Positions 11,783 through 26,228 of a DNA stretch of 28,727 bases are shown here, one piece after another. Position 1 is the stretch's first letter; every line of letters begins with the position of its first letter. A program made the translations under genes and the position numbers. The notes beneath the pieces are model-generated. The model ran no database searches. It saw only the letters and a program-made list of their open reading frames with translations, and was not told the DNA's origin. The stretch comes from a virus: positions 1 through 28,727 of the IMG/VR virus record IMGVR_UViG_3300022874_000030; one strand, written 5' to 3'.

Positions 11783-12250
11783 TCAGATATTATCGTCAAA
11801 TTGCCTTTCTCTAGCAATAACTCCAGTAATAATAATACTTATAAATCTAGTAACAGTCATGTTTCGCTTATGCGCCATCTTCTTAATTAAATTGATTTGA
11901 TTTACATGAAGATCTACACCTAGACGACGTCTAGATTCTCGATAACTCTTTAGTTCAGTAGGTTTAGTTTTTGGGCCTTTTAACAATGAAATAAATAGAT
12001 GCTTAATATTTGTACATGATCTATTACAACATGTACTTCTAACAAAATGAAACTTTGGAATTTTTCCATATTCTGCAATCCATGCTGCTCTATTTGCACC
12101 CTGACTTTTTCCTCTTACGGATATTCTTGGAGTTCCATTACTACATGTTGCACCTATCCACCCATAACAATCATCTTCGTTTTCACCTTTAATGCGAAAT
12201 GAATCAAGTCTTTCTAGTAAATCATCTTTACGTTGTTGTGTCATATTCAT
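11783..12250 (-). CDS. Free-standing HNH homing endonuclease-like protein (155 aa)
   Basis: Likely a mobile DNA-cutting enzyme. Residues about 27-88 show the HNH plan: CYGWIGA, then GTPRISVRGKSQGANRAAW, then YGKIPKFHFVRSTCCNRSCTNIKHL. In the usual H-x-C-D-N-x-x-C-x-N-x-x-H-L motif the first histidine is serine here (S72), while the zinc cysteines, N81 and H84 are kept, so activity may be altered. The C-terminus (about 110-145, VDLHVNQINLIKKMAHKRNMTVTRFISIII) looks like a small DNA-binding helical or ribbon-helix-helix domain. The gene is antisense to its neighbours and has its own TTGACA promoter at 12331-12359. AAAGG stands nine bases before the ATG. Confidence 0.75.
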   Translation of the reverse strand: MNMTQQRKDDLLERLDSFRIKGENEDDCYGWIGATCSNGTPRISVRGKSQGANRAAWIAEYGKIPKFHFVRSTCCNRSCTNIKHLFISLLKGPKTKPTELKSYRESRRRLGVDLHVNQINLIKKMAHKRNMTVTRFISIIITGVIARERQFDDNI

Positions 12251-19267: not shown

Positions 19268-19921
19268 ATGAAAACATGCAAAGATTGTAAAATAACAAAA
19301 CCACTATGCGATTTTTATGTAAATGGAAGAAATAAGAAAACAGGTAAGCTGTGGTATCATTGTAGGTGTATTGAGTGTCATAATTTAAAATTTAGACCTA
19401 GAACTGGAGTAATAAGTTCAACTAGGTTTAAAAAAGGCCATATTCCTATGTCTAAAAAAATAGAAGGCGGAAGACATAGCTTAATGCATAAAGAATGGAT
19501 ATCGATGGTCTTTGAAAGAGATTTGTATATATGTCAAGAATGTTTTTCTACAGAGAATCTAGACGCTCATCATATTAAGTCATGGAATCATTATCCAGAT
19601 TTAAGATTTAAATTAAACAATGGTTTGACGTTGTGTAAGTCGTGTCATTCAAAACTTCATCTTAAAGATAAAAAATGCTTCCATAAAGGAAATATTCCTT
19701 GGAATAAGGGAACTGTTGGAATTATGGTTGCGTGGAACAAGGGTATAAGTGCAACGCTTGAAGCAAGAGCAAAAATGCGTGGGAAAAGGAAAAATTTTAT
19801 TCCATGGAACAAAGGACTAATAGGAATGGTGAAGATTAGTTTAGAAACAAAAAATAAAATGAGTAAAGCACATAAAGGTTTAAAATATAAAAAAAGAACT
19901 TTTAAAAGATTGGAAGCATAA
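19268..19921 (+). CDS. Free-standing HNH homing endonuclease with NUMOD3-like repeats (217 aa)
   Basis: A mobile DNA endonuclease. The N-terminus is a four-cysteine zinc module (C4, C7, C34, C37). Residues 84-131 form the HNH domain: RDLYICQEC, DAHHIKSWNHYPDL, then NNGLTLCKSCHSKLH, with paired cysteines at 89/92 and 123/126 and the histidine pair 101/102. The C-terminal third has repeated PWNKG/AWNKG motifs (144-182) and SLETKNKMSKAHKG, a NUMOD3-type DNA-binding repeat of homing endonucleases. It is inserted between two tail genes, has its own extended -10 promoter, and its stop overlaps the next ATG (TAATG), so it can be translated in tandem with the propeller gene. Confidence 0.9.
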   Translation: MKTCKDCKITKPLCDFYVNGRNKKTGKLWYHCRCIECHNLKFRPRTGVISSTRFKKGHIPMSKKIEGGRHSLMHKEWISMVFERDLYICQECFSTENLDAHHIKSWNHYPDLRFKLNNGLTLCKSCHSKLHLKDKKCFHKGNIPWNKGTVGIMVAWNKGISATLEARAKMRGKRKNFIPWNKGLIGMVKISLETKNKMSKAHKGLKYKKRTFKRLEA

Positions 19922-21802: not shown

Positions 21803-21824
21803 CAGCTTTCTAGAAGCCAGCTTT
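21794..21824 (-). repeat. Tandem 15-bp repeat duplicating the terL end (KAGF-stop)
   Basis: Read on the minus strand, the last terL codons AAAGCTGGCTTCTAG are followed directly by AAAGCTGGTTTCTAA: the KAGF-stop block is present twice, in frame, with TAG and then TAA. Two bases differ. Confidence 0.8.
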
Positions 21825-24800
21825 ATATATATTATTCATAGAATTATTATTTCCATATTGAGCTTGTTCTCGTTTACGTTTAAGCTCTTCGGCCGTCATG
21901 CTTGGTTGCATATGATTAACAGAAACTGCTAAGTAGCGTAGGGCGTCACAGTTTGAGACTAAATATCCATTAATGTAATAACAGTTATCTTTTTCAACGG
22001 TTAAGTCGTATACCTCTTTTGGTGTATCTAGTTGAGAGATTTGCACATTCTTTACTGCATGTTTTTTTAAGAACATATTTGTTACAGACAAAAGTTTTAC
22101 CACAAATAATACAATTCCTTTTTTCATCATCAATACGAGAGAGAACTCTTGCTTTTGTTTTACATTTATTGCTGCAGAATTTTCCCCATGCACATCCTGC
22201 TTCGTATTTTTTTGAACACACTTCGCATGTTTTTTCGTATTTAATTCCTTTAATGCCTGGCAATGATGTTTTAGCATGGTTTCTGTGCCACTCTCTTCCT
22301 TTTTTGCTTCGATGCCATACCTTAGAGAGTTTATTTTGCGCAACAAGAACCTTTTTGCATGCTTCAGACTGGCACCAAGAATTTGGTTCGGTAGCATGCA
22401 GATACCCATGATCATGTTTAGTAAGCATTTCAAGATTTTCAATATTGTTATTTTTAGTATTCTTGTCTTTGTGATGTATAACATATCCTTCTGGGATTTT
22501 TCCGTTATGTTTTTCCCAGACATGTCTTTGGATTGTTGTGAACACACCCTTTCCTCTATAATATCCCTTGTCTCCCGTTCCCATGTAATATTTTGATGCA
22601 GTCCATCTATAAAGGTATCCATTAAACAAGATTTGTTTTTCATCTTCTGAGATAAGATAGTCTTCTTGAATCCTTTTGAATCTGACCCCTTTATATAATA
22701 TCCAAATATCTTTCTCCATAAATAAGTCCTTATTTTACTATATGGTTCTAATACATGCGAATATCTTAGTGCATCGGCAGAAACAAGTCCATCGTTAGTA
22801 AAAAATGTATGATCAGGAGTACATTTTATATTGTTATTTATGGTATAAAGTTTGTCTGTTGTTCTTTTGTGAACTTTAAGTACTTTTCTTGTTCCAAGCG
22901 GTGTTATAACGCTGTTACCAGGTTTAATATCTTGTATAGCAACTTCACCATTTGCGGTTAATACTTTCATGTCTCCTGTAAAACAAGCGTGACTATACTT
23001 ACTGTGAAGAGGTTTCCCCGTATAATCTTGTGTTTTTTCGTCCCACTTTTCTCTATAGTTTTCTATTGCTTTAATAAGCTTTGCGCATCGTTGTTCATCA
23101 ATCCATACTCTACCAAGAATAGAACGAACAGCTTCTATGCCATCACGTACTGTTAATTTTGGTGCCATTATAAAATTAATACCTAGTTGTTGTGCCTTTT
23201 GTATTCTTGACATACCAGACGTATATTCATTCACAAAAATATCATGTGGAGCAACATGCTTACCGTACAAATATGGTTTGCTTTTTAATACCTGTACATA
23301 ATGTTCTAAACCTTCTTTGTTCTTTTCATAGAAGTCTATAATTCGTATTGTATTGCCAATTAGCTGGTAGAAAATTATAGAATTAGAATCATGAATTCCC
23401 AAATCCCACGCTGTATGAACAGGAAAAGAAGATTCCCATGGAGAAAGACCAATTTGATGATTTAAATTCATCTTATCAATGTATTTTGCGTAGTAACTTC
23501 CCTCAACGCCCGCATCGAAACTGCAATTATGAACGGCTCTTCCATTTACGGTATAACTTTCATCGTATTGAACAGAAAGATTATAAACATTACCAGAATA
23601 TGGACAAGATTCTATAGATTTCACCCTTGCTGCTATACAATTTTTAGCGCGACGTAAATACTTACTTTGGCCTCTTAAAGATAAATAAGTTATCTGTATG
23701 GAAAAAGATTCTTTACACTTTACTTTTCTTCCTTGAATAATGTTTTCGCAAGGTTTTTTTACTGAAATTCCTGCTGCTAATCCCATGTTTAAACTATTAG
23801 CAAGAAGTTGTACTTGATAAGCAAGTGTTTTTGATATAGTTGAATAAGAAATTCTTTCTAATCCATTTTTATATTTATAAACACAACCATCTCCTTTAAT
23901 CAGCTCAAAAAAGAAATCTTTTTCATGTCCAGCTATAAGAGTAAATGGTATGCATTTTTTATATGAAATAGACCCACAATTTATCTTCATAAAATCTATA
24001 AGAGCAGTCGATCCAACCAGAATATTAGTTGCGGTCTCTGTAGGAGATAAAGAAAATTTTATACCTAAACTGTTCAATAAAAATGATACGCGATCAATAT
24101 CTTTTTGAGAACCAAGCGTAAGCTGAAGGCCATTTTTAAATGATGATCCTTCGGTTATATACCATGCCATTAGAAGAGCAAGTTCTTTTCTAATTATTTC
24201 ATGCTTGCCAAGTGTTGCTTTAGGAAAAACAACATAGTCTTCTGTTGTTAATTCTTGAGCTTGTTTCCATGAGTAGCTTTGAGTTTTATAGTCATATATC
24301 TCAATAGGGTGTTCAGGAGTACATCTAATATCTTCAGATGACCCAAAAGATTTTATAACAAAAATCTTTCCATCATATTGTCTTTTAAATGTTTTAAGAA
24401 CTTTTCTCCATCTTCCGGCATGTGATAAAACAAGATCATCTTTAATTATATCTTTAATTGGTTTTATATCAGATGAAGTTAAAACAGACTGAGATCCCTC
24501 AAAGCAATAATATTCTTGTTGAATCATATCTGGACTAAGATTTCCTTCTGCGATTTCACGATCTATTGCTTCTTGTGAAATATGTTGTGTTTCATTTAAT
24601 CCAAGCTTACACGACCACCAATATGGTGAATTTTCAGCAAGTTGATATAAATCCCATAATCCATTGTGTCCTCTAGGCGTACTTTGGAAGATCGCCCAAC
24701 CACCATTTGCTGCTAAAACAGGGGATAATAGAGCCCATATACGCGGGTTTTGTAATGCATATTCACTGAAAACAATACCTCTTGGATTTGTTCCCACAAT

Positions 24801-26228
24801 GGAATTACCAGACCACATTTCTTTTCCGTTTCTTCTTACTTTTATAACTCCAGATGGAACTGAAACGCAATAAATCATTCCTGTATAATTCTCTTTTGTA
24901 ATATATCTCTTTTTTGATGATGAAAAACGTTTGAATTTTGAAGTTCTAACAGAAAAGGCATAAAGTGTATTTTTATTTTTAATAAATCGATTGTCTCTAT
25001 TGATCCAGTGTTTATCGCCAATATTATTTTTTATTGAAACATTTCCACTATAACCAAGTTTGATTGCTATTTCCTGAACATCATCGACAAGTTTTTTTGA
25101 CGTAGAGTAATACGCAATGCCACCATTATTTTTATGTATACTTCCATCACCAAGAACAAGCCAATCAAATAAAATCTTAAGATACTTAACGGAAAGATTC
25201 TTTATATCTTTTGGTATAAATCTATTTGGTTGAAGTCCAAACTGACTAAAATATTCATAAAGTTGTCGATCTTCAATGCAATAGTTATTATTATAATTCG
25301 AATAATTTAATCTGCACTTATCTAATAACTCTTCTATTTTTAATCTTATGGGTTCTTTTTTTTGAGTGATAGTTGTGCGATATGTTTTTTCGCTTTTAAA
25401 TGTATTACCTTCAGATAGAAAAATACCAAGGAGAGCAACAAAGTTTTCCATTTTTAAGGTTCTGTCGTATAACTTTTTGCAGACTCTTCCTTTTCCTGTT
25501 ATCCATTCAGAATAAACAGTAGGAAAAGCAAAAGTGTCTTGTTCTTTCCCATTCCATAAACACGTAGACGGAATACTATCACCAGAAAGAGAAAGCTTTT
25601 CTACAGTCTTAAATTTATAGAACCCCTTATCTGATTTCACATAAAATCTATGCGTTGGGGTAACCAAAAAATCTAATGATGTATTTAATCCACGATACAT
25701 TTCTCCATTATATGGCTTTTCTACATATGCAATAGGCTTTTCATATACAAGATAACCATCTTTTAATGTTGCAACTGATTCTGTTTTATTAAGATCTTTA
25801 AATAATTTCCATCCATCTTCAGTTAATATTTCAGTTTCATGGTCAAAACAATCTGGATTATCTGATCCGATAATTTGTATTATTGAACTATTCATGAGAT
25901 TAATTCTTAGCTCTTGTGAGTTCATACTGGATATCATTTGCTTTGGAATATAATCTAGGAAGCGTTTTCCGTCATTCGTAACTGAGTTCCACAGAATCTT
26001 ACGACCTTGGTTATAGGTTGGATAGCAGACGAAATAGACTCCTGGCTTATTTATTGCTTCTCGTATTAGCATATTCCATGTCATTAGATCTTTTCCAGCT
26101 CTACGACAAATCACTAACACCATTCTTTTGAACTCATCACCAAAGAATGCTTGCATAATAGGACGTTGATAATCCCTAGGAACAAACTTATTAAGATGTA
26201 CTTCTATTTCAATTGGTTTTGTTTCCAT
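21810..26228 (-). CDS. terL: Terminase large subunit precursor carrying three inteins (1472 aa, 451 after splicing)
   Basis: The motor that cuts and packages phage DNA into the capsid. Four extein pieces (residues 1-126, 476-574, 902-1081, 1427-1472) join to a typical 451-residue TerL. ATPase: Walker A is CRRAGKD (41-47), Walker B lies at GIVFSEYA with E489, and the coupling motif is AIFQSTPRG (513-520). RNase-H-like nuclease: WDLG with D942, APHDI with D996, and the final CDALRY with D1428. Inteins sit before Walker B, before CSFDAG and before CDALRY. The ATG directly follows the stop of the ERF-like gene (TAA-ATG) without a clear ribosome site, so translation is probably coupled. The gene is opposite in direction to the virion genes. 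Function depends on three splicing events. Confidence 0.93.
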   Translation of the reverse strand: METKPIEIEVHLNKFVPRDYQRPIMQAFFGDEFKRMVLVICRRAGKDLMTWNMLIREAINKPGVYFVCYPTYNQGRKILWNSVTNDGKRFLDYIPKQMISSMNSQELRINLMNSSIIQIIGSDNPDCFDHETEILTEDGWKLFKDLNKTESVATLKDGYLVYEKPIAYVEKPYNGEMYRGLNTSLDFLVTPTHRFYVKSDKGFYKFKTVEKLSLSGDSIPSTCLWNGKEQDTFAFPTVYSEWITGKGRVCKKLYDRTLKMENFVALLGIFLSEGNTFKSEKTYRTTITQKKEPIRLKIEELLDKCRLNYSNYNNNYCIEDRQLYEYFSQFGLQPNRFIPKDIKNLSVKYLKILFDWLVLGDGSIHKNNGGIAYYSTSKKLVDDVQEIAIKLGYSGNVSIKNNIGDKHWINRDNRFIKNKNTLYAFSVRTSKFKRFSSSKKRYITKENYTGMIYCVSVPSGVIKVRRNGKEMWSGNSIVGTNPRGIVFSEYALQNPRIWALLSPVLAANGGWAIFQSTPRGHNGLWDLYQLAENSPYWWSCKLGLNETQHISQEAIDREIAEGNLSPDMIQQEYYCFEGSQSVLTSSDIKPIKDIIKDDLVLSHAGRWRKVLKTFKRQYDGKIFVIKSFGSSEDIRCTPEHPIEIYDYKTQSYSWKQAQELTTEDYVVFPKATLGKHEIIRKELALLMAWYITEGSSFKNGLQLTLGSQKDIDRVSFLLNSLGIKFSLSPTETATNILVGSTALIDFMKINCGSISYKKCIPFTLIAGHEKDFFFELIKGDGCVYKYKNGLERISYSTISKTLAYQVQLLANSLNMGLAAGISVKKPCENIIQGRKVKCKESFSIQITYLSLRGQSKYLRRAKNCIAARVKSIESCPYSGNVYNLSVQYDESYTVNGRAVHNCSFDAGVEGSYYAKYIDKMNLNHQIGLSPWESSFPVHTAWDLGIHDSNSIIFYQLIGNTIRIIDFYEKNKEGLEHYVQVLKSKPYLYGKHVAPHDIFVNEYTSGMSRIQKAQQLGINFIMAPKLTVRDGIEAVRSILGRVWIDEQRCAKLIKAIENYREKWDEKTQDYTGKPLHSKYSHACFTGDMKVLTANGEVAIQDIKPGNSVITPLGTRKVLKVHKRTTDKLYTINNNIKCTPDHTFFTNDGLVSADALRYSHVLEPYSKIRTYLWRKIFGYYIKGSDSKGFKKTILSQKMKNKSCLMDTFIDGLHQNITWERETRDIIEERVCSQQSKDMSGKNITEKSQKDMLYITKTRILKITILKILKCLLNMIMGICMLPNQILGASLKHAKRFLLRKINSLRYGIEAKKEESGTETMLKHHCQALKELNTKKHAKCVQKNTKQDVHGENSAAINVKQKQEFSLVLMMKKGIVLFVVKLLSVTNMFLKKHAVKNVQISQLDTPKEVYDLTVEKDNCYYINGYLVSNCDALRYLAVSVNHMQPSMTAEELKRKREQAQYGNNNSMNNIYKAGF
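21951..22985 (-). mobile_element. Intein 3 of TerL containing an out-of-frame HNH gene (345 aa)
   Basis: Starts at C1082 (CFTGDMKVLTANGEVAIQDI) with block B KCTPDHTFF and ends EVYDLTVEKDNCYYINGYLVSN before C1427. Intein residues 1-88 and about 318-345 are recognisable splicing domain. Residues 89-331 are not an endonuclease in this frame: they are Lys/Leu/Ile/Met-rich and look like the by-product of the HNH gene read in the other frame (21994-22719). The frame nevertheless stays open for 242 codons. The penultimate residue is Ser instead of His. It interrupts the last nuclease motif (HA/CDALRY). Confidence 0.88.
21994..22719 (-). CDS. HNH homing endonuclease nested out of frame inside intein 3 (241 aa)
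   Basis: A complete endonuclease gene inside terL. It begins at an ATG on the third base of intein codon 89, with AAGGA seven bases upstream and an in-frame TAA six codons before the ATG, so it is not fused to the intein. The HNH domain is RHVWEKHNGKIPEGYVIHHKDKN with NLEML and HDHGYLH (residues 65-108; H82/H83, N95, H104). The C-terminal half has two four-cysteine zinc modules (C165, C168, C182, C186 and C203, C206, C221, C225) for DNA binding. It ends with TGA shared with intein codons 330-331 in block F. Translation independent of terL is likely. The protein would cut intein-less terL alleles; this is inferred from the family. Confidence 0.9.
   Translation of the reverse strand: MEKDIWILYKGVRFKRIQEDYLISEDEKQILFNGYLYRWTASKYYMGTGDKGYYRGKGVFTTIQRHVWEKHNGKIPEGYVIHHKDKNTKNNNIENLEMLTKHDHGYLHATEPNSWCQSEACKKVLVAQNKLSKVWHRSKKGREWHRNHAKTSLPGIKGIKYEKTCEVCSKKYEAGCAWGKFCSNKCKTKARVLSRIDDEKRNCIICGKTFVCNKYVLKKTCSKECANLSTRYTKRGIRLNR
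23526..24506 (-). mobile_element. Intein 2 of TerL with LAGLIDADG endonuclease (327 aa)
   Basis: Starts at C575 (CFEGSQSVLTSSDIKPI) and ends ...YTVNGRAVHN before C902. Block B is RCTPEHPIEI. Endonuclease motifs are LLMAWYITEG (E119 of the intein) and FFELIKGDGC (D206). Block F is VYNLSVQYDESY. All standard splicing residues are present: Cys1, T-x-x-H, terminal His-Asn and Cys+1. It interrupts the extein sequence EYY/CSFDAG between ATPase and nuclease. Confidence 0.93.
24804..25850 (-). mobile_element. Intein 1 of TerL with LAGLIDADG endonuclease (349 aa)
   Basis: Starts at C127 (CFDHETEILTEDGWKLFKDL), ends ...MWSGN before S476. Splicing block B is VTPTHRF (T-x-x-H). The homing endonuclease has both LAGLIDADG motifs: LLGIFLSEG (acidic E147 of the intein) and FDWLVLGDGS (D235). 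The insertion is inside the very conserved extein motif GSDNPD/SIVGTNPRG just before Walker B. The penultimate residue is Gly instead of the usual His; +1 is Ser. Confidence 0.92.

Follow-up and report, generated by a model that had tools for sequence, protein, structure and literature searches.

A predicted HNH homing endonuclease gene overprinted out of frame on an intein of phage terminases

How can an intein and a homing endonuclease share the same DNA without sharing a reading frame? The question is raised by terL, the gene of the large terminase subunit, on the minus strand of the IMG/VR virus record IMGVR_UViG_3300022874_000030, a stretch of 28,727 bases that was analysed at full length and is called the window here. 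A first-pass annotation had described a nested HNH endonuclease in the third of three inteins of this gene. The HNH domain was found, but as a separate open reading frame (ORF) in another frame and not as a domain of the intein. This out-of-frame position is the unusual feature of the locus and had been overlooked. The features concerned are the following (a slash marks a splice junction).

21810..26228, minus strand: terL ORF with three inteins, 1472 amino acids, ATG to TAG
21951..22985, minus strand: intein 3, 345 amino acids in the terL frame, YSHA/CFTGD...YLVSN/CDALRY
21994..22719, minus strand: HNH homing-endonuclease ORF, 241 amino acids, ATG start, TGA stop
22727..22731, minus strand: Shine-Dalgarno-like AAGGA, 7 nucleotides upstream of the HNH ATG

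The HNH ORF starts and stops within intein 3 and overlaps its residues 89-331 in frame +2 relative to terL; it is a separate gene. Over the 242 codons of the HNH, the terL register contains no stop and the third frame 29. In the canonical layout the endonuclease shares the frame of the intein and lies between the splicing blocks, and intein 3 departs from this layout. We consider it highly probable that a TerL intein was invaded by a homing gene in another frame, which overprints the linker of the intein, and that the translation of TerL keeps the intein frame open.

Intein 3 has the sequence features of a splicing domain, namely Cys1, a block B with CTPDH (TxxH), a terminal Asn and a Cys at the +1 position. 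Its splicing halves comprise the residues 1-85 and about 314-345, and the overprinted linker lies between them. The Pfam family Intein_splicing was matched with 7.8e-11, above the cut-off. In the AlphaFold2 model, the predicted local distance difference test (pLDDT) score was about 74-95 for residues 1-90, 69 for 311-320 and 88-93 for 321-345, and mostly below 58 in the linker. A Foldseek search with this model gave the gp41-1 intein 6qaz as the top match (E 6.9e-6), and DnaB inteins were also similar. When 66 inteins of the set described below were checked, Cys1 and a block-B motif of the TxxH type (T, S or G at the first position) were present in all of them, and the +1 residue was C in 55 and S in 11. 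The empty site was examined in 80 IMG/VR TerL relatives that had been retrieved with the spliced TerL sequence. At the position of intein 3, intein-less homologues were filled by continuous sequence, with one alignment segment in 78 of the 80 and no gap in 77.

The HNH ORF matched HNH_3 (7.1e-18) and phrog_15471 (1.4e-33), and HNH_3 was found in no intein frame. A profile of 20 HNH members matched the homing endonuclease I-HmuI with an E value of 8.9e-5; the Foldseek match to I-HmuI was weak (E 0.032). The AlphaFold2 model of the HNH ORF had a mean pLDDT of 88, and 25 positions were invariant over the 20 profile sequences, among them HNH-type and zinc-ligand-like His and Cys residues. The window contains two further ORFs of this sort, a second HNH_3 ORF at 11783-12250 (minus strand, 155 amino acids, on the strand opposite to its neighbouring genes) and a third HNH ORF at 19268-19921 (plus strand, 217 amino acids) with a weak NUMOD3 match.

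The recurrence of the arrangement was followed with HNH relatives gathered from viral contigs, genome contigs and phage records, where eight of 30 phage records were used. The set comprised 144 loci, the window and L082-L224, every one with an HNH match. A locus was called overprinted when the N- and C-intein signatures stood in one stop-free frame and the HNH in another. The first classing gave 77 overprinted loci, 22 in which the intein was split or had its halves in different ORFs, 13 in which one signature was seen and 32 with none. After inspection, 85 were overprinted, 23 split, 32 had no signature, one was cut by the contig end and three were unresolved, a class that includes L089 and L090 with their broken HNH. 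Clustered at 90% identity, the loci formed 127 clusters, with 20 split, 29 without intein signature, one at a contig end, two unresolved and 75 overprinted, the last figure not being a population frequency because the seeds of the collection were mostly overprinted.

Overprinting was found in three named isolates, Acinetobacter phage Highwayman, Tetrasphaera phage TJE1 and Rhodobacteraceae phage LS06-2018-MD07, and in 13 genome-contig clusters, including a Thermoplasmatales metagenome-assembled genome (L191). Terminase families were matched by 9 of 10 hand-picked host N-exteins. In 51 of 66 inteins, the insertion preceded the Arg of the RY motif by 4 or 5 residues. At L215:2031-3035 the same kind of intein stands away from the nuclease motif, at RAW/CDEVAAW, which is apparently a Walker B motif. 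When relatives were sampled by TerL alone, an overprinted intein was present in 2 of the 80 (L020 and L021), three codons upstream of the site in the window, and a separate HNH gene directly after terL in another 2 (L011 and L033).

An HNH in frame with the intein was observed in none of the 144 loci, and the HNH was in the +2 register in 76 of the 77 loci that were first classed as overprinted. These counts bear on the possibility that the HNH is an ordinary in-frame domain and the two frames are the product of sequencing errors. Single-base errors at both ends of a segment could conceivably displace it in this way, but the same register recurs in unrelated assemblies and in the three isolates, the HNH of the window has its own start and stop inside the intein, and errors would not produce the avoidance of stops in a second frame that is described below. 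We regard this explanation as extremely improbable. The exception to the +2 register, L152:3760-4776, is overprinted in the other out-of-frame register, which has no stops there, with 8 in the usual one.

In 69 overprinted clusters, the intein register had 0 stops where 171 were expected, a circular result, an open frame being the criterion of the class, and the third frame had 1437 against 1475 expected. These are about 20 stops per gene in the third frame, which accounts for the fixed register of the HNH. A non-circular test was made with all 92 clusters that have a well-scoring HNH between two intein halves. The expected number of open frames was obtained by permuting synonymous codons in 2000 draws. 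The intein register was open in 74 of the 92 clusters, against 9.9 expected and a maximum of 19 in any draw. For a control, free-standing HNHs were open in 0 of 10 (74 stops against 70.8 expected) and split loci in 1 of 18 (105 against 101.7), and the further split locus L145 had 7 stops against 6.9. L126 was left out of the stop counts for the unread bases in its sequence. The overprinted clusters were open in the usual register in 72 of 73, and L152 was open in its own. Overprinted HNHs gave fewer stops in the usual register than free ones both by their choice of residues (2.40 versus 3.43 per 100 codons) and by their choice of codons (1.07 versus 3.64).

Conservation was compared frame by frame between the window and L114, L084 and L085, which have the same type of intein 3. 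The identity was 64-65% in the HNH frame, 44% in the terL frame and 41-44% in the third frame. The terL-frame linker was thereby rejected as a conserved protein. Since the peptide of the terL frame is no better conserved than that of the unused frame, selection seems to act on the HNH protein and on the absence of stops and to be blind to the sequence of the linker. It might be argued that the HNH copies are inactive passengers and that only the open intein frame is selected, and L082 and L083, which have lost the HNH core but retain the intein with its frame still open, fit such a view. These two were also the only matches when the sequence of intein 3 itself was used as the query. The identity of the HNH frame far above the other two, the invariant positions and the confidently predicted fold speak for a maintained protein, and we consider the passenger explanation very unlikely.

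The start of the HNH protein was examined in the overprinted clusters. A Shine-Dalgarno-like match was present for the HNH frame in 33 of 69, for the third frame in 18 and for the terL frame in 11. Alternatively, ribosomes that translate the terL frame could slip by -1 and make the HNH as a fusion of N-extein, N-intein and HNH. The HNH does lie in the -1 frame, and some loci have slippery heptamers in the correct phase. However, 22 heptamers were counted in the frameshift phase and 20 and 8 in the two others, without a clear enrichment, and in the window and in other loci a Shine-Dalgarno-like site and an ATG are found at the HNH start. Frameshifting is therefore an improbable source of the protein in our judgement, and an independent start is the reading that we follow.

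Other states of the same HNH family were observed. In the Vibrio phages 1.245.O and 1.238.A and in Brochothrix phage BL3, the terL ORF stops under the HNH and a small separate ORF encodes the C-intein and the C-extein, as in a split intein. The intein halves stand in separate ORFs in L108, L109 and L113, and in one continuous ORF in the window. In L111, L112, L126, L149, L160, L184 and others, the HNH adjoins an intein-less terL or terS. One locus classed as split, L200, is open under the HNH with its halves in different frames and resembles an overprinted locus with one upstream frameshift, either genuine or due to faulty assembly. The deep branches of the HNH tree were weakly supported (of 99 inner branches, 12 were starred). 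At least 5 changes between overprinted and split were required, and the direction of the changes is not readable. The overprinted, split, free and HNH-deleted states suggest a cycle, to which the tree gives no orientation.

A role in packaging is known for HNH genes that neighbour terminase genes, and the HNH of HK97 gp74 type is reportedly a packaging cofactor of the terminase (Kala 2014, as cited in PMC12613952). The HNH studied here might be such a cofactor that was domesticated in terL and not a homing enzyme, and its free-standing relatives do adjoin terL or terS. A cofactor of this kind is at odds with the sporadic occurrence of the HNH in 4 of the 80 TerL relatives, with its HNH_3 family and its profile match to I-HmuI, with its confinement to intein sites in a narrow stretch of TerL and, in one case, with the loss of its core from the open intein of L082/L083. 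We hold this alternative to be unlikely and favour a homing gene.

We propose the following sequence of events. Ribosomes translating terL would keep to its frame across the HNH region, and their product would contain a splicing domain whose linker is poorly conserved and of low predicted order. Intein 3 would then excise itself, and TerL would be ligated at the nuclease motif HA/CDALRY. From the same mRNA, an independent start inside intein 3 would give the HNH protein, which presumably cuts intein-less terL near HA/CDALRY, so that repair copies the insertion in. Selection would retain both the HNH sequence and the stop-free terL frame, the latter because TerL is needed.

The sequences show the overlap and its recurrence, the avoidance of stops, the intact splicing residues, the conservation of the HNH frame and the empty sites. 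That the intein splices and that the HNH is translated, cuts DNA and homes is what we infer from them. Several further points weigh against this proposal. The loci were collected by HNH similarity with mostly overprinted seeds, and the stop count of the 69 clusters has the circularity mentioned above. The residue before the terminal Asn of intein 3 in the window is Ser and not the usual His, as it is in 24 of the 66 checked inteins. In 36 of the 69 overprinted clusters, the HNH frame had no Shine-Dalgarno-like match of at least 4 bases. Finally, the HNH distances track those of the TerL extein (partial Spearman 0.37) more than those of the intein (0.26), so a joint movement of intein and HNH as a cassette is not claimed.

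The remaining parts of the terL ORF are these.

25851..26228, minus strand: extein 1, 126 amino acids, with CRRAGKD, which we take to be Walker A-like
24804..25850, minus strand: intein 1, 349 amino acids, LAGLIDADG, +1 Ser, IIGSDNPD/CFDHE...MWSGN/SIVGTN
24507..24803, minus strand: extein 2, 99 amino acids
23526..24506, minus strand: intein 2, 327 amino acids, LAGLIDADG, +1 Cys, EYY/CFEGS...RAVHN/CSFDAG
22986..23525, minus strand: extein 3, 180 amino acids, nuclease domain
21813..21950, minus strand: extein 4, 46 amino acids, nuclease motif CDALRY

The first-pass annotation had proposed three inteins at conserved motifs of TerL, two of them with LAGLIDADG endonucleases, and both proposals held. 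For its suggestion that packaging could depend on the rate of splicing, no evidence was found. The four exteins, cut at the standard intein borders, join to a spliced TerL of 451 amino acids, and GIVFSEY, shortly after the site of intein 1, is presumably a Walker B-like motif. The spliced protein matched phrog_2, the large terminase subunit (4.2e-26), and phrog_2472, a family without a named function (8.8e-46); its Pfam matches were weak. It matched 1454 phage records in tblastn, and its identity to intein-less TerLs reached 67%. The proposed boundaries agreed with intein-less homologues, since a single alignment segment spanned the sites 126, 225 and 405 in 73, 80 and 78 of the 80 relatives, and the junctions were ungapped for about six residues on each side in 69, 80 and 77. 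At the +1 Ser, Cys and Cys of the window, the nearest intein-less relatives L002, L003 and L005 have Arg, Val and Ala. One relative, L045:6001-7286, is disrupted by a frame change and contains no intein, which points to a sequencing error or a pseudogene.

LAGLIDADG_3 was matched in frame in inteins 1 and 2 (5.8e-10 and 2.1e-9), and Intein_splicing also in intein 2. The intein_Nterm model (TIGR01445) gave 23.9, 17.0 and 21.0 bits for inteins 1, 2 and 3, all below the curated cut-off of 24.5. Each intein was sought separately in related phages. Intein 1 has relatives at the same site in L033, L034, L035 and L053 (46-48% identical) and in L230 (76%) and L231 (67%), where the TerLs are 52% and 56% identical in the main segment. 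The same-site relative of intein 2, in L225/L226, is 56% identical, with 38-44% for TerL. The inteins thus resemble each other more than their host TerLs do, which suggests separate horizontal arrival. The number of three, which had been taken as the remarkable part, is less so, as each site is occupied separately elsewhere and second insertions occur in L225, L230 and L084. The three inteins are probably independent elements that came together in one terL by chance. Beyond their sites, inteins 1 and 2 show nothing notable; they are LAGLIDADG inteins of the conventional kind and were apparently acquired separately. The intein 3 type occurs in L082 as well; the TerL ORFs of L082 (1624-4701) and L084 (1266-4913) have further intein-like insertions, at a Walker A-like PRR/CLAVDTD and near TerL residue 165, respectively.

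These observations suggest that inteins and their homing endonucleases are not necessarily made as a single protein and that a separate gene can encode the endonuclease. Two frames are then used over a long stretch of DNA, and the second product apparently does not require a conserved sequence. Annotation overlooks half of the arrangement: in the Highwayman record, the terminase is listed at this place and the HNH gene is absent. Free, overprinted and split-flanked HNHs of one family at one gene make the acquisition of intein endonucleases and the origin of split inteins testable. We see an even chance that the overprinted inteins form an undescribed, phage-wide class of mobile inteins with the endonuclease gene in a fixed out-of-frame register, linking free HNHs, contiguous mobile inteins and split inteins and offering a route to the latter. 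If so, stops gained under the HNH would lead to intein halves that are translated apart and splice in trans.

Compared with known systems, inteins 1 and 2 are of the same type as conventional LAGLIDADG inteins. Split inteins with an endonuclease gene between their halves were reportedly described as 'fractured genes' by Dassa in 2009. They resemble the split class found here in Vibrio phages 1.238.A and 1.245.O and Brochothrix phage BL3, whereas the intein of the overprinted class is unsplit. A preprint on actinobacteriophage inteins with a 'non-canonical architecture' (bioRxiv 10.1101/2025.01.02.630785), a reference of the ShiLan paper discussed below, may deal with unusual layouts of intein and endonuclease and could already contain the overprinted arrangement. 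For mycobacteriophages, the report by Kelley (2016, PMC5050341) locates the terminase inteins in the ATPase domain. As there, the terminases studied here are rich in inteins at several insertion sites, but intein 3 differs in its place, the C-terminal nuclease motif, and in its out-of-frame HNH.

The sole close precedent in our literature search was the ShiLan domain (Arsenault, Gosselin and Gogarten 2025, PMC11855218). According to that paper, an out-of-frame HNH lies in an insertion of a DNA methylase whose frame is stop-free, the insertion is neither an intein nor an intron and is thought to be tolerated and not spliced out, and a related methylase is preceded by a similar HNH in a gene of its own. 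A genome announcement (PMC12613952) repeats the finding of the out-of-frame HNH and methylase for phage Applejack. Like ShiLan, intein 3 has an out-of-frame HNH inside an in-frame insertion with a stop-free host frame. Unlike the ShiLan insertion described there, it is a recognisable intein with a splicing domain and intact splicing residues, it resides in terminases, and its HNH family has split and free-standing relatives.

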